The position numbers and the translations under genes were made by a program. A stretch of DNA of 20,018 nucleotides from a virus. Below the pieces are notes generated by a model. It did not search any database and was not told the origin of the DNA. It was given only the letters and a program-made list of their open reading frames with translations. Shown piece after piece: positions 157-20,018 of this stretch; within the stretch, counting starts at the first letter, position 1, and each line of letters opens with the position of its first letter. The DNA lies in the IMG/VR virus record IMGVR_UViG_3300033998_000291, positions 1 to 20,018 of that record; one strand, written 5' to 3'.

Positions 157-1791
157 TTAAACAATATATGTTTCTTCAACAGAACAATTCATTATTTTTG
201 CGACATATCGTCTTTGGATTTCTTCCACATTCATACCATCGATGAAATTCCAATGAATGGATATTCCAGTAGTTCTTTCATTATTATTAAACGGATCATG
301 CTCTATTGTTACTACGACGATTTTTTTGATAATTTTTTTTAAAATAGCATTGGTTAAATTTTCCAAATCAATTTCATTAATATATTTGATAAAATCTTTA
401 AATTCTGCTTCAAGTCTAGTTATCTCTTGATTTATGGTTTTATATTTGTTTAATTCATTTTTCTTTGCTTTTAACTCTGCCTGTAATTCATCATTTTGGC
501 TCTTATACTGTTCTTTATCTATTATCCCATCAGTAAGTAACATCAAATTAGTTTTTATCATTTTTTGTATTTTTTCTATTTCCTGACTTAATTCTTCTAC
601 TTTTTTGTCTGCTTCTGCTGAATCAAAATTAACATAGATATATTCATCAAAAATTGCTTTGTGATCCATTTTTTTAAATTTTTCTATTTCATCTTTGATA
701 TACTGTATTAGATATTCTTCATCTAAAGTATTTCGATGATTGCAAAATTTTGAACCATACCTATCGTTTCCGTTGCAACACCAGTAAAATCTATTTTTAT
801 CATATTGTCTTCTTTTTCGACGGAAATTTGTATTGCAATGTCCGCAATAAATTAAGTTAGAAAACAAATGTACATTAGATGGCCGATGATTATTCTCAAA
901 CATTTCTAACCGCTTTTTTAATTCTTTTTGAACTGCTTCAAAAGTTTCATTATCAATTATTTGCAAATGAGGAAAATAATGGATAATTTGTTCTTCTTCT
1001 GGTATTTCTTTTCTTAGTTTTCTATTGACATCAATAGTGATTGATCTGTGTGTTATTTGTTGTCCGACGTATATTGGATTTTGAAGAATTAATCTAATTA
1101 TCCGTTGCCTCCATATAACTTTCCCTCGTTTTGTAGGTATTTTATGTTCGTTTAGATATTTCATTATTTTTGCGGTGCCATAATTTTTATTTAGATACAA
1201 ATCGAAAATTAGTTTTACAATTTCTGCTTCTTTAGGATTAATTTTTAAATAACCATTTTCCACATCATACCCGTAGGGAATTTGTGCATTCCATTTACCT
1301 AATTTTTGTATCCTTCTAATACCAACTTGAACACTTTGAGAAAGTGCGTTGCTTTCTTCCTGTGCTAAACTTGCAAATAAATTTATAATGAATTCTTTAC
1401 TGTTGTCTAGTGAATTTAATTTTAATAATTCAAACCAAACTCCTATCCCGAATTCTTTTAAATCTTTTAGGTTTTTGGTAAAATCTTCTACACTTCTTGC
1501 AAAACGCTTAATGTCCTTCACAAAAATTATGTCGAATTTTCTCTTTTTTGCATCTTCCATCATTTTTTTAAACGCTTTTCTGTTTTTTAAACTCGTTCCA
1601 GTTATGCCTTCATCTGCATATAAACCTTTTGTCACTTTAGTCCCTTCGTGGCTATACCAAACCCCGCAATTTTCTGCTATCTCATATCCATTTTTTTCAA
1701 CCCATGCTTTAAATTCTGCTTGTTGAGTTTGCATAGAATTTTTTTGGTCTTCTTGATCTGTAGAAACTCGAATATAACATACTGCCCGCAA
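157..1791 (-). CDS. Large serine recombinase / phage integrase
   Basis: This 544-residue protein integrates and excises the element. The N-terminal resolvase domain begins YIRVSTDQ, with catalytic Ser10, and includes the conserved DEGITGTS and KDIKRFAR segments that carry the active-site arginines. A recombinase domain follows (around 160-290, with PYGY and the 'QNPIYVG' block), then a zinc ribbon (about 316-353, YCGHC plus CC and a further C), a long coiled coil (about 390-470) and a C-terminal tail, a normal length for large serine integrases. The start is TTG, seven bases after a perfect AGGAGG. A consensus promoter lies just upstream and the stop is 15 bp from the attachment core. All catalytic features look intact, so activity is plausible. 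A separate recombination directionality factor, normally needed for excision, was not recognised. Confidence 0.97.
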   Translation of the reverse strand: MRAVCYIRVSTDQEDQKNSMQTQQAEFKAWVEKNGYEIAENCGVWYSHEGTKVTKGLYADEGITGTSLKNRKAFKKMMEDAKKRKFDIIFVKDIKRFARSVEDFTKNLKDLKEFGIGVWFELLKLNSLDNSKEFIINLFASLAQEESNALSQSVQVGIRRIQKLGKWNAQIPYGYDVENGYLKINPKEAEIVKLIFDLYLNKNYGTAKIMKYLNEHKIPTKRGKVIWRQRIIRLILQNPIYVGQQITHRSITIDVNRKLRKEIPEEEQIIHYFPHLQIIDNETFEAVQKELKKRLEMFENNHRPSNVHLFSNLIYCGHCNTNFRRKRRQYDKNRFYWCCNGNDRYGSKFCNHRNTLDEEYLIQYIKDEIEKFKKMDHKAIFDEYIYVNFDSAEADKKVEELSQEIEKIQKMIKTNLMLLTDGIIDKEQYKSQNDELQAELKAKKNELNKYKTINQEITRLEAEFKDFIKYINEIDLENLTNAILKKIIKKIVVVTIEHDPFNNNERTTGISIHWNFIDGMNVEEIQRRYVAKIMNCSVEETYIV

Positions 1792-1821
1792 ATTTTCACC
1801 TCCTATTATCTATCTGCTTTT

Positions 1822-1850
1822 ATTATAAAGTAGGAAGTGAGATTTGTCTA
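1822..1850 (-). promoter_or_regulatory. Sigma-A promoter of the recombinase gene
   Basis: On the minus strand TAGACA (1850-1845) and TATAAT (1827-1822) are separated by exactly 17 bp. The gene starts 30 bp downstream behind AGGAGG. The recombinase can therefore be transcribed independently of the tail operon, which ends at the terminator just upstream. Confidence 0.75.
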
Positions 1851-1851
1851 T

Positions 1852-1889
1852 AAAAAAAAATAAAGGGCCTACCCAAAAAGGTAAGCCCT
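1852..1889 (-). terminator. Rho-independent terminator after tape measure gene
   Basis: On the minus strand a 10-bp stem (AGGGCTTACC pairing with GGTAGGCCCT, one wobble pair) with a 6-base loop is followed by TTTATTTTTTTTT. The stem begins inside the tape-measure stop codon, so it ends the morphogenesis transcript. Confidence 0.9.
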
Positions 1890-3852
1890 AACTTGTATAT
1901 TGAATTACTAATGTTTTAGCTAATTTTAAAAAACTATCCGCATCTTTTGTTTCTACTTTATCTATATGGAAGTTAAAATTTTGAGTATTGTTTTCAATTT
2001 TTTGCTGAGACACAACATTTTTTGCCGAAGGGTTCCAGGGATTGTAATCCTTTGGTATTATTGCTTCTCCTTCATGAATCAGTGCTAATTGATCGAAAGG
2101 TACATATGTAGTGCCTGAAGCATACGCAGGGACAACATATGTTGCACCAGAACTACTACTTGACATTTTGCTTTTACTGCTATTCCAAAAAGTCAGTTTT
2201 TCTTTAAGCCATGAAATTGTATTATTTACCCAATCTTTGATATCTTCCCATATGCTTCGCATACCGTCCCATACTGCGCCAAATATGTTTTTACCAATAT
2301 TTGTAAATACTTTAAACGAAGCACGAAGAATAGCATAAACACCATCAAGTAGTGAAGGTAAAACATTTTGTATTCCCTTCCACACATCTATGAAGATTTG
2401 TTTAATACCATTCCAAACACCAGCCCAATCACCTTTTATCAATGCAGTTATGGTTTTAATTATATCTCGAATAAGATTCATTGCAGTTCGAATGATTGTT
2501 TTTAATATTTCAAAAATTGGTTTGGTTATTGCCACAATGTCATTTCCATATCTTTGCCAAATTATTTTTATAGCTTGCCAAACAGTTTCAACAATAGTTT
2601 TTAGTGCATTGAAAATTTGAGAAAACCATATTTTAAAACTTTCCATAAATGCCTTAAATTCCTGCGCTGATTGGCTATTGCTATTATACCATTTTTTGAA
2701 AGCATTGGTAACATTTGTAATAATTTGGACAAAACCTGAAATAATTGAACTAACAGTATCAAAAACAGTAGTTAGAGTTGCCTGTATTGCAGGCATGTTT
2801 GTTTGTAGCCATGATACAAATTGCGCCACCAATGGAGCTAATCTGTCGCCTAAATCCGTAAATAAACCCATCAGTTGTTTTTGCAATAATGTTAATTGCA
2901 CTTTAAGACTTGCATCATAAGTTTTAGACGCTTTTTCTACTGCTCCCGTTGCCCCTTCCATCGTTTTCTGAATTTCTGCTAATGACTGTGTTCCAGGTTT
3001 GAGTGCATTTGCCATCTGTATGCCTGCCCTGGCTCCAAAAAGCTCTACTGCCATTTTAGCTCTTTGTGTCGCATCTTCTGTATTCTGTAATTGAGTAATA
3101 GCTTTTTGGAGTTCTTGAGGGCTTTTTACCTGTTTGAGTGCATAGTTAAAAGCAGTAATGGCTGTACTGGAATCAACACCAGTCGAAGCAAAAAGATTAA
3201 GATAACCTATTGCGTCATCAATACTCATCCCTAAACCCTGAAAAGCAGGAGCCATTTGTTTTAAGGCTGCCTGACTATCCTGAACAGATAATCCGAATTG
3301 TTCCTGCGAAAATTTCAATTTATCCATAATAGGAATTATTTCTTCATTTGCTAAACTCCAAGCATCACCAATATCATCAAGTGCCCCCACAACTTCTTCT
3401 ACACCCTGCCCTGTCACTTTCGCAAAATCAAGAAAATTCTGCGAATATTTTTTTATATCGTCGGCATTCATCTGCATGTTGTTGTGTAATGCTTCAGCCA
3501 TTTTTGCTATGTCTTGATAACTGTCCTCATTAGTCTTGTATAGGTCTTTAATTGTCTCTTTAACTTTTTCCGCTTCTTCTGCTGTCATGCCTGTTGATGC
3601 TTTAAATTTTGCCATTGTGTCATCTAATTCCATTGCGCTTTTAACCCCTGCTACTGCCATAGCTCCCACGGCTGCTGTGACTGTTGCTATCCCTGCAACA
3701 ACAGAAGTTTTCAAAAATCCTGCCATAGAACTCATTTTTGATTGAAATTTTTCCGCTGTCTGCTCTGCATTTTGCATACCAACAGTAAAATTTTTATCGT
3801 CTAAAACCAAATGTGTCGCATAAGTGGCTAAATCTATCACCCCTGGCATCAT
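1888..3852 (-). CDS. Tail tape measure protein
   Basis: A 654-residue protein that sets tail length and is the scaffold for tail-tube assembly in siphoviruses. The sequence shows an N-terminal helical region, an Ala/Val-rich hydrophobic segment (about 48-70), a conserved TP901-type tape measure region (about 75-330, including ELDDTMAKFKASTGMTAEEA and the VELFGARAG stretch), then long amphipathic and hydrophobic helices rich in repeated Trp (about 340-560). The C-terminal LALIHEGEAIIPKDYNPWN is typical of Firmicute tape measures. The ATGATG start overlaps the TGA stop of the preceding chaperone gene. At roughly 1.5 angstrom per residue it predicts a short tail near 100 nm. No internal stop or frameshift is seen. 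In intact siphoviruses the next gene encodes a distal tail protein; here a terminator and the integrase follow instead. Confidence 0.93.
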   Translation of the reverse strand: MMPGVIDLATYATHLVLDDKNFTVGMQNAEQTAEKFQSKMSSMAGFLKTSVVAGIATVTAAVGAMAVAGVKSAMELDDTMAKFKASTGMTAEEAEKVKETIKDLYKTNEDSYQDIAKMAEALHNNMQMNADDIKKYSQNFLDFAKVTGQGVEEVVGALDDIGDAWSLANEEIIPIMDKLKFSQEQFGLSVQDSQAALKQMAPAFQGLGMSIDDAIGYLNLFASTGVDSSTAITAFNYALKQVKSPQELQKAITQLQNTEDATQRAKMAVELFGARAGIQMANALKPGTQSLAEIQKTMEGATGAVEKASKTYDASLKVQLTLLQKQLMGLFTDLGDRLAPLVAQFVSWLQTNMPAIQATLTTVFDTVSSIISGFVQIITNVTNAFKKWYNSNSQSAQEFKAFMESFKIWFSQIFNALKTIVETVWQAIKIIWQRYGNDIVAITKPIFEILKTIIRTAMNLIRDIIKTITALIKGDWAGVWNGIKQIFIDVWKGIQNVLPSLLDGVYAILRASFKVFTNIGKNIFGAVWDGMRSIWEDIKDWVNNTISWLKEKLTFWNSSKSKMSSSSSGATYVVPAYASGTTYVPFDQLALIHEGEAIIPKDYNPWNPSAKNVVSQQKIENNTQNFNFHIDKVETKDADSFLKLAKTLVIQYTS

Positions 3853-10371: not shown

Positions 10372-12096
10372 TTATAAACCTAATAATTTTCTATCGAAAA
10401 CTTCTATTTTTCTATTAACTTCAATTTCATCCAACAACCTATCACATTCGGCTAATATGTCAGGAGCATCATCATGCAAGGTATACCCTTCCCCTTCATA
10501 AGCCAAAACCTGATTATAAAATTCCGTATCTTCTTCATTAAAAATTATAAAGCCACTATCCACTTTACCAGATATGGCTCTTATTTTGGCTTCTTTATTC
10601 TTAAATTGACGCTCATTAATTATTTCTATATTCCTATGTTTTAAAGTATCATCTTTTTCTATCCTCTGTCGTATTTCTCTTGCATCAGTGCCATTATAGG
10701 TATTTTTTTCAATCCAAATATGAGTAATGTCAGGATATTCCTTTAACAATTCAATAACTTTATTTACGTATTCATCAAAGGTATATTTTGCAATAATACC
10801 TTTACGAATCCATCGGAAATTATTGCTTGTTAGACTTCCTACACATAAGGCAGTATAGTCATTGCTAGCATTAGTTTCTACTGCTGGATCGCAACAAAGT
10901 ATAGTTTTAACAAAGGTATTATTTTCAACAAAATCCTTCGGTTTAACTGTAACCTGATGAAATGCTTTTTCACCGATTTTGCTGGCATCGTTCTGCATTT
11001 CCTGTTTAAAAGCAGAAGGATTTGAGTAATAATCAATTGCCAAATCCAAACAATTCCATTTGTCGGGCCACAAAACAGGAAATTTCATTTCATTTTCATG
11101 TTGATAATAAAATTCTTTTGCATTATCCTGTGCAAATGGGTCTTTGGGATTGAAATATATTTCTTTAAACTGCTTCCAAAGCCCCTCATTAAAAAGTTTG
11201 TCTACATCATCCACTAAAACTGCTTTTTTAACTATATGCTTATATGAATTATCTTTCAATAGACGGCTCATAAAACAATCTCTGTGCAAAATAGTTCCCA
11301 AAACTATAAATTTTGTTGCCATCTTAACCTTTTTGCCATTTCTGTATACTGCTTTATCGCCTGCGTATTGGCTGTCTTCCATCCATATTTGAAATTTTTT
11401 GTCTCTTGCCTCTTGAGTAATGACGTCATTTTTGCCCTGATAATCGTCGGCTATAATTAGAGACGGTCTATGATTCATGAATTTTTTACCACGCATTGAA
11501 CTTGCGGAAGAAATGGCTTGAACTTTTGTGCCATTTGCTAATTCTAACTCTAAACTATTGGTGGTAAATCTTTTTGTATCAATCAATTTACCAAAAGCAT
11601 TTATAATATATTCATTTTCTTCTAATGCTCTACGAACTTCCCTTATGAATTCTATTGCATCCTGTTCAGTTTTTCCACATATAAGGGAATATATTGATTT
11701 TTTATAGCAATGTGCCCAAACAGTTAAAGCAAAATCGCATGTAGTTGTTTTACTTGAACCCCTGGGCATCACTAATTCTAATTTGTCAAATTCATCCTTT
11801 AGCCACATTCTTTCCAAATTATCCCATATTTCAAAATGAAAATCGGCTAAAGGTCTTACCGCATTATCAGGTTTTACTCTAAAAGTGTCTTGAAGAAAAA
11901 ACAAACAAAAAAATTCAATGCTGCGTTTACCTACAGCATAAGCCAATCCATGATAACCGAAAAGATTGTCTTTGTGTTTTTTAATTATGGCTATGGCTAT
12001 TTTTTTTGCTTCTTGTTCATTTACATTTTTTTCCTGCACTATTATTTTAGTTAGGTATTTTTTTAATAACTCTAAATCTTCTTTTGTATTCTGCAT
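10372..12096 (-). CDS. terL: Terminase large subunit (packaging ATPase/nuclease)
   Basis: Pumps DNA into the prohead and cuts concatemers. From the ATG at 12096 (behind GGTGAAAAAA) it has 574 residues; the frame is open a further 21 codons upstream, but without a better start. The ATPase domain shows Walker A MPRGSSKTTT (about 110-119) and Walker B SLIIADD (about 212-218). The RNase H-like nuclease domain shows CCDPAVE with Asp about 403, IEKN in the middle, and HDDAPDILAE near the end, giving the usual acidic triad. All key residues are present, so the protein looks functional. It follows the small terminase at an unusually long distance of about 600 bp. Confidence 0.96.
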   Translation of the reverse strand: MQNTKEDLELLKKYLTKIIVQEKNVNEQEAKKIAIAIIKKHKDNLFGYHGLAYAVGKRSIEFFCLFFLQDTFRVKPDNAVRPLADFHFEIWDNLERMWLKDEFDKLELVMPRGSSKTTTCDFALTVWAHCYKKSIYSLICGKTEQDAIEFIREVRRALEENEYIINAFGKLIDTKRFTTNSLELELANGTKVQAISSASSMRGKKFMNHRPSLIIADDYQGKNDVITQEARDKKFQIWMEDSQYAGDKAVYRNGKKVKMATKFIVLGTILHRDCFMSRLLKDNSYKHIVKKAVLVDDVDKLFNEGLWKQFKEIYFNPKDPFAQDNAKEFYYQHENEMKFPVLWPDKWNCLDLAIDYYSNPSAFKQEMQNDASKIGEKAFHQVTVKPKDFVENNTFVKTILCCDPAVETNASNDYTALCVGSLTSNNFRWIRKGIIAKYTFDEYVNKVIELLKEYPDITHIWIEKNTYNGTDAREIRQRIEKDDTLKHRNIEIINERQFKNKEAKIRAISGKVDSGFIIFNEEDTEFYNQVLAYEGEGYTLHDDAPDILAECDRLLDEIEVNRKIEVFDRKLLGL

Positions 12097-12193
12097 TTTT
12101 TTCACCAACTTTAAAAAAGACTTCAGGGAAGGAAAATTAGATCCCTCCCCTACAGCCACATTCTCATGGCATAGGCAGTTTTACTTTGTTTGC

Positions 12194-12255
12194 TAGGAGG
12201 AGGCAGGACTTGAACCTGCTATAAACTGCCAAACTTACCGATATGCCAATGGCTG
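12194..12255 (-). pseudogene. tRNA-like remnant in the terS-terL gap
   Basis: The minus strand carries a perfect T-arm, GCAGG-TTCAAGT-CCTGC (12219-12203), followed by CTCCTCCT like a tRNA acceptor 3' strand. Upstream, GCC-ATTGGCATATC-GGT resembles a D-arm with the usual GG in the loop. Only 17 bases lie between the D-like arm and the T-arm where about 22 are needed, so the anticodon arm is incomplete, and the 5' strand has no GGAGGAG to pair with the acceptor. It is therefore not a functional tRNA. It could be a decayed phage tRNA, or a tRNA-mimic structure in the terS-terL RNA. Confidence 0.4.
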
Positions 12256-12257
12256 AT

Positions 12258-12283
12258 GTATAGAAAAAGGGCATAAAGCCCTT
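12258..12283 (-). terminator. Terminator after the small terminase transcript
   Basis: AAGGGC-TTTAT-GCCCTT on the minus strand (12283-12267) is a perfect 6-bp stem followed by TTTCTAT. It lies upstream of the tRNA-like sequence. Confidence 0.6.
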
Positions 12284-12701
12284 GTTCTACCTCGAAAGTA
12301 TAAAAATATGAAAAAAATTTGTAGAGGTTATCCTGGCTCATTTTCTGAAAATTAAAAAAGAAGGCTACCGGCTATTTTATTTTGAAAATTTTGATAATGA
12401 ATAAAATGCAATTTTTATTTTCCATATTTTGTATTTCAATCTATTATAATATTAATTATATAAGATTCAACGTCCGATAATGTAGATTAAGTAAACTAAA
12501 AACAATCCTTCAAAGCCTTGATATTATCGCATTTGTTATTTATTTCCATTTTATTAGTTTACGTTTTATTATTTTATTTCCATTTACTTCCATAATTGTC
12601 CATATACCAAAAACATCTTACCTAATTTCTGGAAATATAAATCAATAAAACGAAACTTTTATTCAATTCTGTAATTTATATTAATACAAGTTTATGCTTA
12701 A
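12284..12701. other. AT-rich non-coding gap between terminase genes
   Basis: About 420 bp with no convincing gene on either strand. It is strongly AT-rich, with GGCTACCGGCTA near 12363 and a T-run that may be a second terminator. Small and large terminase genes usually adjoin, so a gap is unusual. It may contain a packaging (pac) site or a structured RNA, but no recognised motif supports either. Confidence 0.4.
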
Positions 12702-13094
12702 TTATTCATTATCTAATTCTTCTAATTCTTCAAGTATGTCAACATCTTCTTTATCTTCTGTATCTTCTGAATCTAATGTAACTTTTGAGGTCGGTTTGCC
12801 CAATTGCCTATCAACCCAATATTTGAGCAAATCTGCTTTTACTTTATCGCTCTGACTTTTTTCAATTAGATTCCACATTTTATACAATGCTTCAGGCAAT
12901 TTTGAATTTACAATCTTTTCTGCCTGAGCTTTATTTTCCTGTAGTCTTTCGTCAAGGGCTGCCTTAAATTCTGGATTTTTGAGCCAATCATATATTGCTT
13001 GTCTGCTTCTACCTATTTTCTGTGATATTTCAGTAATTCCCATACCTGCAACCAAATATTCAATACATAGTCTTTTTTGTTCATCAATTATCAT
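12702..13094 (-). CDS. terS: Putative terminase small subunit (phBC6A51-type HTH)
   Basis: A 130-residue protein from ATG at 13094, six bases after GAAGG; a TTG two codons upstream is possible. The N-terminal helix-turn-helix reads KRLCIEYLVAGMGITEISQK and IGRSRQAIYDWLKNPEFKAA, the layout of phBC6A51-family proteins. A helical oligomerisation region (about 50-105) follows, then an acidic tail (SEDTEDKEDVDILEELEELD). Small terminases recognise packaging-initiation DNA and hand it to the large subunit. The position upstream of terL and the HTH plus acidic tail fit. It could alternatively be a related HTH regulator. Confidence 0.8.
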   Translation of the reverse strand: MIIDEQKRLCIEYLVAGMGITEISQKIGRSRQAIYDWLKNPEFKAALDERLQENKAQAEKIVNSKLPEALYKMWNLIEKSQSDKVKADLLKYWVDRQLGKPTSKVTLDSEDTEDKEDVDILEELEELDNE

Positions 13095-13124
13095 TGTCAA
13101 CCTTCACCACCTTTACAGTTAACA

Positions 13125-13144
13125 ATTATACCCCCTATGGGTAT
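13125..13144 (-). promoter_or_regulatory. Inverted repeat over a -10 element upstream of terS (CsoR-like)
   Basis: On the minus strand ATACCC-ATAGG-GGGTAT forms a perfect 6-5-6 inverted repeat (13144-13128), and its right arm runs into TATAAT (13130-13125). There is no good -35 at 17 bp, as in activator- or repressor-dependent promoters. The shape closely resembles operators of the CsoR/CstR family (copper or persulfide sensors), known from genes such as copZA. Here it would control the late (packaging) operon. Whether a host CsoR-type protein or a phage protein binds is unknown. Confidence 0.45.
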
Positions 13145-13149
13145 ATAAT

Positions 13150-13248
13150 TTATTTCTTTTTCCTTCTTCTTTTTTCTAATTGTTGTAAATTTTCCTCTGA
13201 CTGCTTTTTCCATTGCTTTAGTAGTTTACTAAAATTATCTTTCTTAAT
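13150..13248 (-). CDS. Possible 32-aa basic helical peptide with non-AUG start
   Basis: After TAGGAGAGG the minus strand reads from an ATT codon: IKKDNFSKLLKQWKKQSEEN, then a leucine/glutamine helix, ending with RRRKKK. The composition (amphipathic helix with basic tail) looks protein-like and the ribosome binding site is good, but there is no ATG, GTG or TTG in frame. ATT starts are known but rare (infC). It may be a real small gene or a decayed one. Confidence 0.3.
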   Translation of the reverse strand: MKKDNFSKLLKQWKKQSEENLQQLEKRRRKKK

Positions 13249-13282
13249 TGTTAACCTCTCCTATTATTTAAGTTTACAATAA

Positions 13283-13492
13283 TTAAAATACTTCTTCATC
13301 CATTAATTCAATGAAAATCTTAAAGTTATTATTATAACAATAATCCTTAAACAAATCTAATATTGTTTGATTTATTTCTTGTTTTTTTTCATTCTCTGCT
13401 GATTTGTATGCCTCTTTTAAATTTTTCAACAACTGAAGAATTATCTTCCCCTTTACTTCATCATTAATATTATCAACTTGAATTGCTCTCAT
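13283..13492 (-). CDS. Hypothetical small acidic helical protein (69 aa)
   Basis: The start ATG at 13492 follows TAAGGAGG at good distance, ruling out the upstream in-frame TTG at 13537, which lies inside the terminator stem. The product MRAIQVDNINDEVKGKIILQ continues as helices (LLKNLKEAYKSAENEKKQEI) and ends IELMDEEVF. No family was recognised. It lies in the cluster of small genes between the putative origin and terS, where phages often keep replication or regulatory accessory factors. Confidence 0.65.
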   Translation of the reverse strand: MRAIQVDNINDEVKGKIILQLLKNLKEAYKSAENEKKQEINQTILDLFKDYCYNNNFKIFIELMDEEVF

Positions 13493-13527
13493 ATTATAAA
13501 TTTCCTCCTTAATTATTATAAAGATAT

Positions 13528-13552
13528 AAAAAAACAAGGGCTAACCCCTTGC
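13528..13552 (-). terminator. Terminator after the 24-aa reading frame
   Basis: AAGGG-GTTAG-CCCTT followed by GTTTTTTTAT on the minus strand (13550-13529) is a 5-bp stem with an excellent T tract. It overlaps the stop of the 24-codon frame and the next gene has its own ribosome binding site downstream. Confidence 0.7.
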
Positions 13553-13615
13553 GACAAAACAATTCACGAAATTCGTCGAATGATTAATTTTTCTCAACAT
13601 GCCTTTCCACGTCAT
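13541..13615 (-). CDS. Possible 24-aa peptide
   Basis: ATG at 13615 is preceded by AAAGGTGAT at a normal distance. The peptide begins MTWKGMLRKINHSTNFV and ends CFVARG, with its stop codon inside a terminator stem. The strong ribosome binding site and a terminator immediately after suggest a genuine mini-gene, but at this length coding statistics are not informative. Confidence 0.35.
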   Translation of the reverse strand: MTWKGMLRKINHSTNFVNCFVARG

Positions 13616-13676
13616 GAATATCACCTTTGTTTTATTTCTACAAAAAGAGGGAATTTCCTGCAAATATCGAAAAATT

Positions 13677-13883
13677 TTAGCTCTTACTTAAAAACCAACT
13701 GCAAAATTTTTCCAAACTAATATTTTTAAACATTTTATTTTCCAGCATTTCTTTTGTTTTTTTAAGTTGATATAAGCTATAATCCATAAATTTTCCTACA
13801 ATGTCTCCAATTTCCTCCGGCCAATTGAATTCATTTTTGAAATATTTTGCATAGTTAATATATTGATCCATTTTTATTATCAT
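13677..13883 (-). CDS. Hypothetical small protein (68 aa)
   Basis: ATG at 13883 is nine bases after AAAGGAG; an in-frame TTG two codons upstream sits too close. The product begins MIIKMDQYINYAKYFKNEFN and continues with WPEEIGDIVGKF, a lysine-rich helix and the end LEKFCSWFLSKS. It is the first gene after the palindrome cluster. No family was recognised. The aromatic and lysine content would fit a small helical DNA- or protein-binding factor, but that is only a guess. Confidence 0.6.
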   Translation of the reverse strand: MIIKMDQYINYAKYFKNEFNWPEEIGDIVGKFMDYSLYQLKKTKEMLENKMFKNISLEKFCSWFLSKS

Positions 13884-13930
13884 ATTCAATCTCTCCTTTT
13901 ATCTTATATAATTTTTTTTTAAAAGACTTT

Positions 13931-14330
13931 TTACGTAACTTTTTACGTAGTTTTTACGGTCTGGAAACCCGCATCAGACGGCTTTTTAAGTTTAATACGT
14001 TTAATACGTTAGGTATAAAAATAAAAAACCTACAAAGAGAAAAAATTATATATTGAGAATAATTCTCATTAGGGATGTACTACTCTATAGCCTACAAAGG
14101 AAAGAATATATCCATTTTGAGAATGATTATCATTATTGATATTTTATATATTATATATCCCTAATAGTAATAATTATTATTAGCATATATACATTTTTTC
14201 TTTTGTAGGAAATTAAAATAGGCCGGTTTTTTGTTCCGGCCTTTTTTTATATTTATATCCTACGTAAAAAACGTATTTAACGTAAAAAGCTTTATATCAA
14301 GGCTTTCGGCTACGTAAAAACTACGTATTA
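13931..14330. repeat. Inverted ACGT-rich arms with three palindrome modules (putative origin/operator cluster)
   Basis: This gene-free region has two imperfect inverted arms of about 80 bp: 13945-14029 on the plus strand and 14240-14324 on the minus strand. Both read ACGTAGTTTTTACG, later GCTTTTTA, then AATACGTTT, then ACGT-AGG and a run of A and T. Nine or ten ACGT cores are clustered here. Between the arms are three modules of CCTACAAA plus A-rich spacer plus palindrome plus TA(G/T)(G/T)GAT. The palindromes are TGAGAATAATTCTCA (14054-14068), TGAGAATGATTATCA (14118-14132) and, in opposite orientation, the 23-bp CTAATA...TATTAG (14161-14183). Location directly after the primase and helicase genes suggests an origin, with operator function as the alternative. 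Confidence 0.6.
14216..14250. terminator. Bidirectional terminator after the helicase gene
   Basis: AGGCCGG (14220-14226) pairs with CCGGCCT (14236-14242), followed by TTTTTTTAT on the plus strand and by ATTTTAATTT on the minus strand. It can end the replication-gene transcript about 90 bp after the stop codon. Confidence 0.7.
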
Positions 14331-14332
14331 AG

Positions 14333-15751
14333 TTACTTATTAAGTTCCCACATCATTTTTGGTCTTCCTTTTGTAGGAATAGTTTTATAAATTACTTTCT
14401 GTCTTGCTGAAAGTTTTTGCAATGTATTTTTAATTTTCGATGATTCGACATTACATAGGAAAATATTTTTATAAATTTCTGTTTGTGTCATAGGCCCATA
14501 CTTTTTTAATCCTTCTAAAATGTTTTCTGCTATCGGATCATTTCCAGTTTCGTTAAAAATAAATTCCACACTTTGCTGGCATCTATTCCATATCGCTAAA
14601 CCTGCTTCAATATGTTCTGGTTTAATGAACTGAGATTTATCCAATATTGCATAAAGTAAAGATAACCTTAAAACCTGTGTTTCTGCCCTGCTGGTTATCG
14701 CCCCTATTATGCCATCTTTTGGCTCTGTAAGCACATAGTATAGATTATGCCACATTTCATTAGCTTCACTATTTCTTTTAATGTGTCTATCTTCGCTTTT
14801 TAAAGTTTTAATCCAATTTAAAACATCTTTTAATTTTAATAAAAGCTCATTATATACTGAATTAGGAATTTCTGGAGCATCAGGAAGAAGTTTACTTCTC
14901 CTAATACACATCCACAAAAATCTGTTTGCAAAACCGTTGAAAAGCTCTGTATTATCAAGATATTTTTTTAATTCCTCAATGGTTATGTGGCCTATAATGC
15001 TTATATGTGGCTTTGTTGCTTTGTATGGATTTGAAATACTGCTATTTTCTAATTTATAGCCATCCCATGCTTGTCTTATCATGGTGCTTAAAGTATTTCC
15101 TTCTTTTTGCATCTTGTTCAAGACGGACGCAAATTCACTCTCGATAACTAATAATCTTTTATCGCTAACCCCTGCATCTACAACCTTATCAACAAAATAT
15201 CCTTTTTCTTCATCAAATTCCTGTGAGAATTTTGGATCTCTTATGCTTTTAACCAGGAATTCACCACTGGATAAACCACCAATACATTTTTCCTGCATAT
15301 AAAATTCATCTAGTCTTGAGAATAATTCCCTTATAGGCCCCCAAGACGTTCCTTTTCTTGCTTTTGCAGTATCACCAATTAGCAAAGTAAATAAATTAGT
15401 GCTGTGAGTATCAGCACTAACTTTTGTAAAAACATCTTTTCCAATGTAATTACCAAAAGTAGTGAGAAAACTCATTAGTATTGCTACGTTGTCGGCTTCT
15501 GTGTATGGTTCAAAAGCCTTTACAACCTCACCGGCAAGGCCATGATATGCTTTTTCGTCAATTTCATCTGGCCAAGGGATTATTTCTTCTTGATTTATTT
15601 CTTTATCTGTGCTATCATTACAATTAAAGGATTCGGTTTCATTTTCAGTGAGATTCTCTGTCTCACTTTTTTCTATTTGGAATAATTCATTTATTTCTGT
15701 TTCATATTCTTTCAGTTCTTCGATTGAGATTCCTTTTATATTATTTTCCAT
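14333..15751 (-). CDS. DUF3987-type replication ATPase/helicase
   Basis: A 472-residue protein. The first 60 residues are acidic and low-complexity. The core starts around 65 (AYHGLAGEVVKAFEPYTEAD). It has a degenerate P-loop GDTAKARKGTS (about 126-136), in which the usual GK[ST] is RKGTS, and a Walker B-like LLVIESEFASVL (about 200-211). It also contains HISIIGHITIEEL and NGFANRFLWMC, as in other DUF3987 proteins. The C-terminal 70 residues resemble a winged helix (YGPMTQTEIYKNIF). DUF3987 proteins are RecA/AAA-type ATPases found with primases in phages and plasmids and are thought to act as replicative helicases. It starts with ATG behind AAAGGAG. It lies next to the zinc-finger primase, which supports this role. 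Confidence 0.8.
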   Translation of the reverse strand: MENNIKGISIEELKEYETEINELFQIEKSETENLTENETESFNCNDSTDKEINQEEIIPWPDEIDEKAYHGLAGEVVKAFEPYTEADNVAILMSFLTTFGNYIGKDVFTKVSADTHSTNLFTLLIGDTAKARKGTSWGPIRELFSRLDEFYMQEKCIGGLSSGEFLVKSIRDPKFSQEFDEEKGYFVDKVVDAGVSDKRLLVIESEFASVLNKMQKEGNTLSTMIRQAWDGYKLENSSISNPYKATKPHISIIGHITIEELKKYLDNTELFNGFANRFLWMCIRRSKLLPDAPEIPNSVYNELLLKLKDVLNWIKTLKSEDRHIKRNSEANEMWHNLYYVLTEPKDGIIGAITSRAETQVLRLSLLYAILDKSQFIKPEHIEAGLAIWNRCQQSVEFIFNETGNDPIAENILEGLKKYGPMTQTEIYKNIFLCNVESSKIKNTLQKLSARQKVIYKTIPTKGRPKMMWELNK

Positions 15752-15774
15752 TTTTTCAATCTCCTTTTATATTT

Positions 15775-15954
15775 TTATCTTGATAAGAAATATTGATATT
15801 CTTTGAGTTCTTTTTCAAGCTTTTTATCATATTCAAAAACAAAAACTGTTGCAATTTTGTTGTATCGATTTGGCTTCAAGTCAATAATTTTACAACCTTT
15901 TTGTACTAGCCATTTTGCCAACACTGGATTAGTTATCACTTTTTCCGTTTTCAT
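15775..15954 (-). CDS. Small phage protein, DUF5659-like (59 aa)
   Basis: ATG at 15954 lies behind GGAGGAGATATTGAAAA, and the frame overlaps the end of the primase gene by 26 bp. The product begins MKTEKVITNPVLAKWLVQKG and continues CKIIDLKPNRYN, then a hydrophobic strand TVFVFEYD and a charged end. The combination of an 'LA.WL...G' helix, an 'N' turn and a 'VFVFE' strand is the pattern of DUF5659 proteins, small factors next to phage replication genes with unknown function. The tight overlap argues for translational coupling with the primase. Confidence 0.7.
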   Translation of the reverse strand: MKTEKVITNPVLAKWLVQKGCKIIDLKPNRYNKIATVFVFEYDKKLEKELKEYQYFLSR

Positions 15955-16786
15955 TTTTCAATATCTCCTCCATAATTTTAATTTTTTCCTTTAAATTTCC
16001 ATTTTTTAGAATATCTATTTTTTCTTTCCAGATTTCTTCTTGTCTTTTGGCTTCAATATATTCTGCATTACCAATATCTTCAGGTCTTTCAATTTCTATA
16101 TCGCTATATTTATAAATACAATCATGTTCACGGTCATATAGAATATTCAAAACTTTTTCATATAGAACCATAAAATTTTCATATCGAATTTTATCCATAT
16201 TGAAAAAATCCGGATATTTTTTTAGAACCTCAATTACATCAATCATATTTTCTTCTAATGTAACATCACTAGAACAAGGAAATACATTTTCTATTTCTTC
16301 AGATTCACGTGTATAAGCTTCAATGATTAATCGGACTTGTTCTTCAATATCTCCATCGATCAAAATGTCTTTGAAAAAATCTAATTCTGAATTAGATTTA
16401 TAAACAAGCCACTGATAAACTTTTTTTCTTTTCAGAAGAAAATTTTTATACATTTCAATTTCTTGTGTTGTAGGCTTGTTTTTCTTGATATATTCAGTAT
16501 TACCTTCAATCAAATAATCCTTCTTTATTTTTTTTACTGCTTCTGAAATACTAATACTTTCCATTTTCGCTACAAAGTCTACTACATCTCCGCTTGCCCC
16601 GCATCCAAAGCATTTCCAACCGCCATCAGGGAAAACCACAAAAGAAGGTGTTTTTTCTTCGTGAAAAGGGCATAGTATATAATACTTGTTCCTTTTTTGC
16701 TTTGGAGGATCTAAACCATATTTATCAATCACGTCTAATATGCTTACTTTTTGTTTGATTTCTTCAAAAATATTCGTTTTAATCAA
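15929..16786 (-). CDS. CHC2 zinc-finger primase-like protein
   Basis: The N-terminal domain is a DnaG-type zinc-binding primase domain: EEIKQKVSILDVIDKYGL, then CPFHEEKTPSF, then GGWKCFGCGASGDVVDFV, giving a C-x2-H and C-x2-C site. The rest (about 190 residues) is helical and charged and has no TOPRIM catalytic motifs, so the protein is far shorter than DnaG. It may present the template to a partner, possibly the neighbouring ATPase, or be a split primase. The start is uncertain. An ATG at 16837 lies inside a terminator-like hairpin. The nearest plausible ribosome binding sequences (AAAAGGA, AAAGGAG) point to a TTG at 16786, used here, or a rare ATT at 16771. Confidence 0.85.
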   Translation of the reverse strand: MIKTNIFEEIKQKVSILDVIDKYGLDPPKQKRNKYYILCPFHEEKTPSFVVFPDGGWKCFGCGASGDVVDFVAKMESISISEAVKKIKKDYLIEGNTEYIKKNKPTTQEIEMYKNFLLKRKKVYQWLVYKSNSELDFFKDILIDGDIEEQVRLIIEAYTRESEEIENVFPCSSDVTLEENMIDVIEVLKKYPDFFNMDKIRYENFMVLYEKVLNILYDREHDCIYKYSDIEIERPEDIGNAEYIEAKRQEEIWKEKIDILKNGNLKEKIKIMEEILKNENGKSDN

Positions 16787-16818
16787 CTCCTTTAATCCTT
16801 TTTTATTTTTAAGTAAAA

Positions 16819-16856
16819 AATTAAAAACACACGACATTTTTGTCGCATGTTTTTGC
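16819..16856 (-). terminator. Terminator/attenuator before the primase gene
   Basis: On the minus strand AACATGCGACA-AAAA-TGTCGTGTGTT makes an 11-bp stem with two wobble pairs, extended by A/T pairs and followed by TTTAATTTTTT. It lies between the 49-residue gene and the primase and includes an apparent ATG of the primase frame, so it probably limits or regulates read-through into the replication genes. Confidence 0.65.
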
Positions 16857-16935
16857 CTTTGACTAACTTTTACCTTTCTATTATTATTATACTCATTTTT
16901 TTTGATTTTTTAAATAGCAATTTAAAATTTTTCTT

Positions 16936-17085
16936 TTATCGGTATACAGTTTTTTCTAAATTTGTGATTCTAACCTCATGATCCATTAAAATTTTTTGTA
17001 TGGCTTCTATCATCATATCGGTTTTTTTATTACTTTCCTGTATTTGGTAAATAAGTTCCTCAATTTTTTCAATTAACTGATCCAT
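16936..17085 (-). CDS. Small coiled-coil protein (49 aa)
   Basis: ATG at 17085 follows TAGGAGGC and starts 11 bp after the stop codon of the HTH gene, so the two are probably co-transcribed. The product MDQLIEKIEELIYQIQESNK continues as one heptad-like helix with hydrophobic I/L spacing and ends RITNLEKTVYR. It is likely a short coiled coil that dimerises. No family was recognised. A role as a partner of the HTH regulator is an inference from position only. Confidence 0.65.
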   Translation of the reverse strand: MDQLIEKIEELIYQIQESNKKTDMMIEAIQKILMDHEVRITNLEKTVYR

Positions 17086-17095
17086 TTTCTGCCTC

Positions 17096-17269
17096 CTATT
17101 TTTGTAGTATATATTGTTTGTATGCTGTTTCCTTTTCTGGAATTATGTTGCATTTGTCTTTTTCATACATGCACAGCAATGCCGAAGTGCATCCAATGTT
17201 GTCTGCAATTTCCCGCAATGTAATATTTTTCTTTCTCCGTGCCACGATAAATAAATCTTTTGCGTTCAC
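17096..17269 (-). CDS. Small Cro/C1-type (XRE) HTH regulator (57 aa)
   Basis: Starts with GTG at 17269 behind GGGAGGGGG. The sequence VNAKDLFIVARRKKNITLRE, then IADNIGCTSALLCMYEKDKC, shows the five-helix XRE pattern: 'R..k.itl.eiA...g.s...l..yEk...'. At 57 residues it is close to a bare DNA-binding domain. It is not divergent to any gene and has no protease or dimerisation domain, so it is not a classical CI repressor. A perfect 18-bp palindrome 33 bp upstream of the start is a natural candidate for its own operator. It probably regulates the early transcription unit. Confidence 0.75.
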   Translation of the reverse strand: MNAKDLFIVARRKKNITLREIADNIGCTSALLCMYEKDKCNIIPEKETAYKQYILQK

Positions 17270-17301
17270 TTTTCCCCCTCCCTTGAATAAATTATTATAT
17301 C

Positions 17302-17319
17302 AATTTAATATATTAAATT
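17302..17319. promoter_or_regulatory. 18-bp perfect palindrome before the HTH gene
   Basis: AATTTAATATATTAAATT is its own reverse complement. On the minus strand it is followed by GATATAAT, a candidate -10, and then the GGGAGGGGG ribosome binding site. This placement suits an autoregulatory operator. Being all A/T, chance occurrence in this AT-rich gap cannot be excluded. Confidence 0.45.
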
Positions 17320-17324
17320 AATAT

Positions 17325-17349
17325 TCAAAAAAAAGGCCAAACATGGCCT
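17325..17349 (-). terminator. Small terminator, copy 1
   Basis: AGGCCA-TGTT-TGGCCT on the minus strand (17349-17334) is followed by TTTTTTTGAA. Copy 2, with the same arms, lies exactly 160 bp upstream in transcription. Confidence 0.65.
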
Positions 17350-17429
17350 GAAAGAAGGTGATTTGTGATTATGCTCCCCTTTAATAACTTGCTTTAGATA
17401 CATCAAAAATGGGATAGACTTATTAAAAT

Positions 17430-17445
17430 GGGGACATAACTCCCC
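17430..17445. repeat. GGGGA/TCCCC inverted repeat
   Basis: GGGGA-CATAAC-TCCCC, 5-bp arms with a 6-base loop. It lies between the two small terminators and parallels the CAGGGAAT hairpin before copy 2, as if a hairpin-plus-terminator unit had been duplicated. Confidence 0.4.
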
Positions 17446-17480
17446 GAAAAAACAAATTTATTTAAATAATTAAATGATGT

Positions 17481-17509
17481 TTCAAAAAAATAAAGGCCAA
17501 ATGTGGCCT
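17481..17509 (-). terminator. Small terminator, copy 2
   Basis: AGGCCA-CATT-TGGCCT on the minus strand (17509-17494) is followed by TTATTTTTTTGAA. The arms are identical to copy 1 and the T-tract context (TTTTTTTGAA) is shared. Confidence 0.65.
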
Positions 17510-17539
17510 AATACAGATGGGTATTAATTTATATAAAAA

Positions 17540-17556
17540 CAGGGAATAATTCCCTG
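17540..17556. repeat. CAGGGAAT/ATTCCCTG inverted repeat
   Basis: Perfect 8-bp arms around a single central base. It adjoins the end of the tandem array and could be a protein-binding site. It is a poor terminator because the loop is too small. Confidence 0.5.
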
Positions 17557-17895
17557 AAAAAGTCCTTCCCTATATTATAAGTACGAAGTAAAAACTTAAA
17601 AAATACAAATTTTGCACAAAATTAAAAAAATCCTCTCCATAATATAATAACAAAATTAGAAGCCCAAAATATACAAAAATTCGCAGGAAAAGTCTTTCCC
17701 AATAAATAATACAGAAAAAATTTTGCCAAAAAAGCAAAAATTCCTTAAAAAATCCTTCCCTGTATTTTAAGTACGAAAAACTTTTGCCAAAAACTCAAAT
17801 TTTTTCGAAAATACTTTTCCTATATATAATACAGAAAATCAAAGCCCAAAAATATGCAATTTTCGCCACTTTTAGAAAAAAATATCCTCCTATAT
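17557..17895 (-). repeat. Degenerate tandem array of six promoter-like 60-70 bp units
   Basis: Six copies of a CCTTCCC-like block end at 17570, 17638, 17700, 17760, 17820 and 17890 (steps 68, 62, 60, 60 and 70). On the minus strand a unit reads TTGG(C/G) (at 17849, 17790, 17729 and 17667 in four units), a 15-base spacer, a TATAAT-like A/T block, then GGGAAGGA and a T run. The TTGG block keeps a fixed distance of 24-25 bases to the purine block in all four units. The units are too diverged for a CRISPR array and encode no protein. They lie between the sigma-AP2 gene and the HTH gene and point towards the latter. Confidence 0.7.
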
Positions 17896-18041
17896 ATTAA
17901 ATACTACTTCCAGGGTAATTTTTAACCTTTTTTGACGTAATTTCTACATTTCTTACAAAAACTATGCAACCCATCTTTATTCCTAGTGTCGGGACTAAAA
18001 TATTTTTGCCCAAATTTTTTGTTAAATTTTTGTGAATTTTT

Positions 18042-19361
18042 TTAAACATTGTTCAGTTTGGTTTTTCCCAATTCTTTTGCCCGTCGATCATATGCTCTGG
18101 CGGCTTCCAACGGAGAAGAAAAAATCCCTATATATTCATGTTTATTGCCATTTCTTATTGACGCTAAATATGTCCCATTGCTTCGCCTGCTTACTCCTAT
18201 ATATTTTTTATTTATCATTTGTACAAAAGGACTATTTTCCATATTTTGGATATGCCCTTCAAATAAATACTCCTGCATTTGTTGTAAATTATTGGAAATA
18301 TTTTGGATAAACTGCAAAAATGCCTGAAAACAATTAGCAAATATTTCCATTTTGCGATTATCTGATAAATTAGGATTCTGGCTTTTTTCTAAAATTGAAT
18401 GTAATACGAAATAATCATTTTTAGGAATTCTATCAACCAATACATCGAAAATTGTCTCATGCAATGTATTTTTATTCCTTTGCAGCCACGAAAAACTGAT
18501 CCATTGTTCTCCCTGGCGGTAATTTTCCTTCAAAAAATTAACCAAATATGAAAAATAATCAAAATTTAATTTTGATACTTCATAAATTTTGGCCACTTCC
18601 TGAAGGAATTGCATTATTTTTTTAAGCCTATCAGTCCTTAATTTTTCTTCAATTGATAAATATTCTTCCCATAGCCCTTGAATTTTTTTTACAATAGAAT
18701 CACGCAGCGCATAATAATTTTTGGCAGTCATGTTTAAATTTTGTGCTATTTCATTTTCCTGCTTTTGGCCTGCATTTATGATTGCCTCAAAAATAGAATA
18801 TTGCTTTGGTCCTAACAAATCCTTTGCATATTTTTTTATCGCTTCCCAAAATCTCCGTTCCTTTGTGCTTTCCGTGCTTCCTTCCATAAACTCCTGCACT
18901 TGTCGCCAATCTATGTTTGAGAAGATCACATCTCCATCCGTTTCATCTACAATCTCTGTGATTGGCTCTATCTCAATTTGCTTTTGGTAATTCTTCTTGC
19001 CATCTTTGAAAACTTTGGATTGCCCTCCAACCTTCATGGCTTCATCATTTAATCTGTATTTTATATGTTTTTGAAAATAATCTAAAACACTCTTGTTATT
19101 ATCATATTTACTTAAATCAATTCGCTCCAAGCACTCACAAAAAGAAAACAAAGCAATATCGAAAGCCTCATCCTGGCCTAAAAGGTTTGAATACATGCCC
19201 ATTATGCGGTCAAGAAACTGGTTAAAAAGATAATCCCTTGTTCGCCATTTATCTGAATAGAATATAAGAAATCTGCCTAAAACTTCACTTTTGTTTTGGC
19301 TTTGCTGGTATTCTTCAACCCAATCACGAAAAAACTTCTTTTCGATAAAAATCCCTCCCAT
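18042..19361 (-). CDS. Sigma-70-like protein fused to an AP2/ERF DNA-binding domain
   Basis: Residue numbers count from the first in-frame ATG at 19394. Residues 76-121 (DEAFDIALFSFCECLERIDL, then YD..KSVLDYF..HIKYRLNDEAM) match sigma region 2. Residues 191-242 (KDLLGPKQYSIFEAII, then ENEIAQNLNMTAKNYYALRD) match the region 4 helix-turn-helix. About 150 helical residues follow. The last 56 residues (KKYIGVSRRSNGTYLASIR, EYIGIFSSPLEAARAYDRRA, ending KLNNV) fit the AP2/ERF consensus from its YxGV start to its LN end. It probably directs RNA polymerase to element promoters. The start is uncertain: a consensus promoter overlaps the upstream ATGs, and GGGAGGG sits six bases before an ATC at 19346. 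The ATG at 19361 is used here. Confidence 0.8.
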   Translation of the reverse strand: MGGIFIEKKFFRDWVEEYQQSQNKSEVLGRFLIFYSDKWRTRDYLFNQFLDRIMGMYSNLLGQDEAFDIALFSFCECLERIDLSKYDNNKSVLDYFQKHIKYRLNDEAMKVGGQSKVFKDGKKNYQKQIEIEPITEIVDETDGDVIFSNIDWRQVQEFMEGSTESTKERRFWEAIKKYAKDLLGPKQYSIFEAIINAGQKQENEIAQNLNMTAKNYYALRDSIVKKIQGLWEEYLSIEEKLRTDRLKKIMQFLQEVAKIYEVSKLNFDYFSYLVNFLKENYRQGEQWISFSWLQRNKNTLHETIFDVLVDRIPKNDYFVLHSILEKSQNPNLSDNRKMEIFANCFQAFLQFIQNISNNLQQMQEYLFEGHIQNMENSPFVQMINKKYIGVSRRSNGTYLASIRNGNKHEYIGIFSSPLEAARAYDRRAKELGKTKLNNV

Positions 19362-19365
19362 TATT

Positions 19366-19394
19366 ATTATATTCATAATCTTGTGAATTATCAA
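19366..19394 (-). promoter_or_regulatory. Sigma-A promoter of the sigma-AP2 gene
   Basis: TTGATA (19394-19389), a 17-bp spacer and TATAAT (19371-19366) on the minus strand. It lies just after the terminator of the preceding unit, so the host polymerase can start this gene independently. Transcription would begin near 19360, overlapping the apparent N-terminal ATG codons. Confidence 0.75.
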
Positions 19395-19417
19395 TATATA
19401 TAATGTTAAATTTTTAT

Positions 19418-19442
19418 GAAAAAAAAGAGGCCATTAAGCCTC
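19418..19442 (-). terminator. Terminator after the 78-aa gene
   Basis: GAGGC-TTAATG-GCCTC on the minus strand (19442-19427) followed by eight T. It overlaps the end of the 78-residue gene and isolates the comEC-proximal genes from the sigma-AP2 gene. Confidence 0.8.
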
Positions 19443-19904: not shown

Positions 19905-20018
19905 TTATAACACATACTCTCCAGTATAATATACAGGCATTCCCCCACCATCTATTAATACCGTGCCGCCGTTTTCCGCTCTTATAAAGATGCAATCCCC
20001 CTGGCCTACATCCACAAA
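19905..20018 (-). pseudogene. comEC: comEC, upstream fragment truncated by the element
   Basis: The minus strand enters from the right edge as FVDVGQGDCIFIRAENGGTV, LIDGGGMPVYY, the classic start of the ComEC metallo-beta-lactamase domain (VGQGD and LIDGG motifs). It then runs into element sequence and ends after TGEYVL with TAA at 19907-19905. The membrane channel part of ComEC lies outside the window and would still be made, but without most of the MBL domain. Base composition is GC-richer than the element. Confidence 0.9.
19918..19936. other. Right attachment site (comEC / element junction)
   Basis: TATA at 19925-19928 matches the left core at 138-141 in sequence and in codon phase. Joining the comEC sides across this core gives codons for V-Y-Y-I-Y-K-S-G without a shift. 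The element-side sequence adds six codons and a stop to comEC. Confidence 0.7.

Follow-up and report, generated by a model that had tools for sequence, protein, structure and literature searches.

A phage gene that joins a sigma-like fold to a C-terminal AP2 domain, next to a promoter-like repeat array

Bacterial RNA polymerase is guided to its start sites by one of its subunits, the sigma factor. The initial annotation of the DNA studied here, made from its sequence, described one gene as a sigma-70-like protein fused to a C-terminal AP2/ERF domain and proposed that the extra sequence-specific reader could confine transcription to the promoters of the element that carries it. The literature searched contains no report of a sigma–AP2 fusion. 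The locus therefore raises the questions of whether the fusion is real, whether its larger part is a sigma factor and what such a protein would do. They are addressed here for the window, by which we mean the whole stretch of 20,018 nucleotides of virus record IMGVR_UViG_3300033998_000291. The features discussed are collected in Table 1.

Table 1. Positions of the fusion gene, its domains and the neighbouring features in the window
Feature	Position	Strand	Basis or remark
Sigma-like/AP2 fusion gene	18042..19361	-	ORF prediction; probable start 19361
Host sigma-A promoter predicted for the fusion gene (TTGATA-17-TATAAT)	19366..19394	-	Inside the 71-bp conserved island
Array-motif copy at the fusion-gene start	19346..19377	-	Overlaps predicted transcription and translation start
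Sigma2-like helical domain, residues ~16-127	19014..19349	-	Structure match, none by sequence profile
Sigma4-like helix-turn-helix domain, residues 163-249	18648..18908	-	Structure match
Middle helical domain, residues 250-394	18213..18647	-	Conserved between alleles
AP2 domain, residues 395-450	18045..18212	-	Sequence profile and structure match
Array of 6 promoter-like units	17556..17935	-	Between fusion gene and next gene
Four terminator-like hairpins	17334..17556	-	17556-17540, 17509-17494, 17445-17430, 17349-17334
57-aa Cro/CI-type HTH gene, first after the array	17096..17269	-	HTH_19, E 1.6e-4, under cut-off
Replication genes	14333..16837	-	CHC2 primase 15929-16837; helicase/primase-like protein 14333-15751

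The minus-strand ORF at 18042-19394 is intact, with 450 codons and no internal stop. A second allele, reached via the adjacent primase gene, lies in record IMGVR_UViG_3300034683_000485 (L006), which is 97.4% identical to window positions 12077-17499. The same locus in L006 encodes a protein of 454 aa that is 37% identical over its whole length and has the same AP2 end, and the fusion is consequently taken as real and maintained. A frameshift joining two genes, or an assembly artefact, is excluded by the presence of the same fusion in so diverged an allele beside 97%-identical DNA. The order of the parts is sigma2-like, sigma4-like, middle helical and AP2, with the sigma parts assigned on predicted models. 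Identity between the alleles is highest in the AP2 domain (52%), lower in the middle domain (43%) and lowest in the sigma-like parts (31%). The divergent stretch runs from 17499 through the array, the fusion gene and the small upstream genes, excepting only a 71-bp island at 19354-19423. As the divergence spans all of these, the sequence suggests an early module that has been swapped or is evolving fast, and not a change in the fusion gene alone.

The 71-bp island is 89% conserved in L006 and contains the promoter predicted for the fusion gene. Called mechanically, the ORF extends upstream to a TTG at 19394; the ATG at 19361 follows the -10 box of this promoter by 4 bases. The start ATG of the L006 gene is absent from the window allele, so the window start codon is uncertain; it may be the ATG at 19361, used leaderless, or a non-standard start after GGGAGGG. 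The alleles differ at this place by ~35 bp (window 19346-19377, L006:1035-1110), between two GGGAGG-like repeats.

The sigma-like parts are recognized by predicted structure only. The AlphaFold2 models have a mean pLDDT of 58 (window) and 52 (L006), so that their general fold alone is usable. Sigma factors and AP2 domains are the best structure matches of the window model, and the entire visible match list of the L006 model consists of sigma chains. Window residues 16-127 match sigma2 of Clostridium thermocellum SigI6 (Z 9.3, 3.6 A over 96 residues) and residues 173-249 match sigma4 of Mycobacterium tuberculosis SigL (Z 7.6, 2.8 A over 74), while L006 matches SigI6 sigma2 (Z 9.8, 2.9 A over 95) and sigma4 of Fusobacterium sigma-H (Z 8.9, 2.3 A over 75); Z values of this size are possible between unrelated helical proteins, and the weight lies in the near-exclusive sigma content of the matches, repeated in both alleles. 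The sigma2 and sigma4 folds stand in sigma70-like order in both predicted models, which are of moderate confidence, and on these models a sigma fold is likely. Some sigma chains align as far as residue 356 of L006, so the middle domain, for which no fold was identified within the whole-protein model, may be a further sigma-like HTH.

Sequence comparison gives a different answer for the sigma parts. Neither allele, searched whole or in pieces, matches Sigma70_r2, Sigma70_r4 or any other sigma profile in Pfam, and no sigma match was found in NCBIfam or among PDB sequences. Profile–profile comparison with six phage sigma factors was not significant (probability 0.3%, from a shallow alignment with Neff 1.6). 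The protein is therefore labelled sigma-like and not assigned to the sigma70 family. Sigma70 contacts the beta-prime coiled coil of RNA polymerase through its region 2.2, with the ‘QE’ of DLIQEG. When EAFDIAL/ELYDVAL is aligned by eye with DLIQEGN, in an uncertain register, the Q and E are not kept.

The AP2 domain can be recognized by sequence and by structure. Pfam PF00847 matches residues 397-442 with E 2.6e-4 and the L006 allele with E 7e-6, both under the curated cut-off, and PHROG 99, ‘HNH endonuclease’, matches the fusion protein via its AP2 part only (E 3e-8). In the predicted model, residues 397-450 superimpose on the AP2 domain of TEM1 (7et4; Z 8.0, 1.6 A over 54 residues) and also match AtERF1 (1gcc; Z 7.6). 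The sequence profile and the three-strand-plus-helix fold of the AP2/ERF family are thus both present, and the domain would act as a sequence-specific DNA reader. An HNH nuclease identity is ruled out: no HNH profile in Pfam matches the protein, and L006 lacks all six of its histidines. The architecture named in the initial annotation thus stands, supported by the predicted structures of two alleles and, for AP2, by sequence as well; sigma-domain and AP2 matches are both found and L006 excludes the frameshift. The profile searches proposed there as a check bear out AP2 but not the sigma regions, which are seen in the models alone.

The array directly downstream of the fusion gene is new here. 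Its six units have GG anchors at 17890, 17820, 17760, 17700, 17638 and 17570, spaced 60-70 bp apart with a unit of ~63 bp; the L006 array has seven. Each unit comprises an AT-rich, -10-like core ending at the GG that opens a purine run (GGRRGG or GGRRRGG), followed by a T run. TTTTGG is also present in eight of the 13 units of the two alleles; relative to the GG anchor, the GG of this element falls between -29 and -26 (at about -28 in four of the six window units). The distance from TTTTGG to the AT core is about one promoter spacer and the array is strand-oriented, features by which the units appear promoter-like. A position weight matrix built from the L006 units finds eight above-threshold sites in the window array, compared with a mean of 0.8 (maximum 4) in shuffles. 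The top-scoring site of the whole window under this matrix overlaps the start of the fusion gene; its purine run, GGGAGGG, may simply be a ribosome-binding site.

Clusters of array sites occur only in the window and L006 records among 1.49 Mb of loci scanned, and these two share ancestry here, so the co-occurrence of array and gene represents few independent events. A 17-base array pattern is found in 20 other IMG/VR records, none of which has the array or a related protein. The array cores are similar in both alleles despite protein divergence to 37% identity, so the sites show no change in step with their presumed reader. Past the array come the hairpins, four in ~220 bp against 1.6 expected in the whole 3.2 kb scanned and present in L006 too, then the HTH gene and then the primase and helicase genes. 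The proposal of an extra reader at element promoters gains circumstantial support from this arrangement: the region singled out for it, 17540-17900, does contain a promoter-like array, which among the loci scanned occurs only in the two records with the gene. The accompanying statement that the element has no CI-type repressor is weakened by the small HTH gene, which had been missed.

A regulator acting together with RNA polymerase at promoters of the element is suggested by the domain order sigma2–sigma4–middle–AP2, by the promoter-like character of the array units and by the motif copy at the start of the gene. Our preferred, if tentative, reading (probability roughly 0.45) is that the protein is a phage transcription factor built on a sigma fold with a C-terminal AP2 reader, acting at the array and at its own promoter. 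The gene would probably be transcribed from its own host-type promoter. The sigma2/sigma4-like part would then touch host RNA polymerase as well as the -10/-35-like elements of each array unit, and AP2 would add a contact of its own to a specific sequence, possibly the purine run GGRRGG, limiting the protein to the tandem sites of the element and to its own start. Transcription towards the HTH and replication genes would be controlled in this way, with autoregulation, the direction of regulation being conjectural. A more specific version, in which sigma4 reads TTTTGG, sigma2 the AT core and AP2 the adjacent purine run, as a third reader that confines polymerase to the tandem promoters of the phage, is doubtful.

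The evidence counted for the preferred reading is the fusion in two alleles, the near-exclusive sigma structure matches, AP2 by sequence and structure, the strand-oriented, promoter-like array, found among the loci scanned only alongside this gene, the return of its motif at the start of the gene, and an independent fusion of HNH_3 to a sigma factor in another phage. Counted against it are the missing sigma sequence profile, the low-to-middling model confidence, the ‘QE’ that by eye is not kept, the four terminator-like hairpins separating the array from the next gene, the lack of co-change between array and protein, and the shared ancestry of the two records. In an unlikely but substantial alternative, the sigma fold is kept purely as a set of DNA-binding modules that no longer join RNA polymerase, and the protein is a repressor or activator that would cover its own promoter and the array in the manner of a lysogeny repressor. 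Such a protein could do without a sigma sequence signature and without the core-contact residues (judged by eye), a motif copy overlaps the predicted start site of its gene, and no large repressor gene is seen elsewhere in the provirus. It leaves less well explained why sigma2- and sigma4-like domains are both retained, in true-sigma order, in two diverged alleles, and the array units resemble promoters more than plain operators.

The array, whose repeats are phased at intervals of about six helical turns and which lies beside primase and helicase genes, also invites a reading as an iteron-like or transcription-primed origin, opened or primed by the protein for these neighbours; terminators past the array would yield short RNAs. 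Plasmid initiators often have a further site at their own start, as the fusion gene does. No replication-initiator (Rep) profile was found with Pfam or PHROGs, however, sigma folds differ from those of initiators, and the units have -35/-10-like parts, so that a role in replication is improbable. Least probable is a reading that gives AP2 no present role, as a chance juxtaposition or a decayed homing endonuclease, left over from an HNH-AP2 gene that had entered a phage gene at its end. The match to PHROG 99 and the character of the other AP2 loci read, which are HNH-AP2-type endonucleases or short AP2 proteins, fit such an origin, but AP2 is the part best conserved between alleles, HNH part and conserved histidines are absent, and the fusion is kept in both.

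The architecture appears rare in the collections searched. Apart from L006, single-protein and two-sequence scans of IMG/VR and GTDB species genomes returned no relatives, and INPHARED and PLSDB gave AP2-region or insignificant matches only; the search for the same architecture in other phages thus yielded the one further allele, and as the pattern scans depend on exact matches to short peptides, which more distant relatives may escape, this does not prove rarity. A scan for AP2 alone gave 36 loci, one of which is L006 (as L073). Of the other 35, 32 had their ORFs read, and these are HNH-AP2-type or short AP2 proteins, with no sigma-like part seen. Among 25 records searched with the Pfam AP2 model, a long AP2 protein of this type occurs only in L006.

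The element itself is a whole provirus of ~19.8 kb that fills the window and splits a ComEC/Rec2-like competence gene, whose two in-frame halves lie at 1-125 and 19920-20018 and give a joined peptide matching TIGR00361 (E 9e-10). A motif match at 19922 was rejected as a regulatory site, since it falls on the host/provirus junction. A large serine recombinase lies at one end. Among ORFs of at least 60 aa, its gene directly follows the tape-measure gene (the two in window 157-3852), and no tail-tip, fibre or lysis gene was recognized. The provirus has therefore probably undergone an internal deletion or is defective. Two relatives appear to be inserted in a comM-like gene, one of them L129 (L129:8938-9717; Mg-chelatase/ChlI family, E 1.6e-44) and the other, judged by eye, L006 (L006:1-65), so that elements of this kind seem to favour competence genes.

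Known sigma factors share only part of this architecture. The small sigma of Clostridium difficile phage HGP05 (L072:890-1432), whose large terminase is 46% identical to that of the window element, likewise has a sigma2-like followed by a sigma4-like part in one protein. It differs from the fusion protein in that its 180 aa match Pfam Sigma70_r2 and Sigma70_r4 and lack both AP2 and the middle domain. The SigI factors of C. thermocellum (SigI1, SigI6) include the best single-domain structure match, SigI6 (Z 9.3 and 9.8), although the gap in Z to other sigma families is small, no sequence similarity was detected and they have no AP2.

A C-terminal AP2 is shared with the phage HNH-AP2 homing endonucleases of PHROG 99, whose HNH catalytic part is absent from the fusion protein. 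The plant AP2/ERF factors place AP2 in a transcription regulator, and their fold matches (Z 7.3-8.0), but they contain no sigma part. Plants are thought to have received the domain from a prokaryote by transfer; in prokaryotes AP2 is part of homing endonucleases (PMC3794426). If the third-reader model is true, a prokaryote would have recruited the DNA reader of a homing endonuclease into its transcription machinery, in parallel with that proposal, and AP2 joined to a sigma-like phage factor would be a separate case of the same kind of step. Fusing an extra reader to a sigma subunit would, moreover, be an unusual means of making RNA polymerase more specific, and the compact, repeated candidate targets next to the gene make the model directly testable in vitro.

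A parallel comes from an unrelated phage. In IMGVR_UViG_2609460309_000004 (L136:739-2037), HNH_3 (E 5e-15) is fused to Sigma70_r2/r4 (r4 E 2e-16), in a gene directly before a primase gene; no INPHARED record matches most of the length of this protein, and by eye its HNH histidines look replaced. As in the sigma-like/AP2 protein, a homing-endonuclease-type module is joined to sigma2- and sigma4-type parts, next to a primase gene; in contrast, the module is an N-terminal HNH_3 and not AP2, and the sigma part is canonical. This independent case indicates that such fusions do occur: in two unrelated phages, a module of homing-endonuclease type is attached to a sigma or sigma-like protein.
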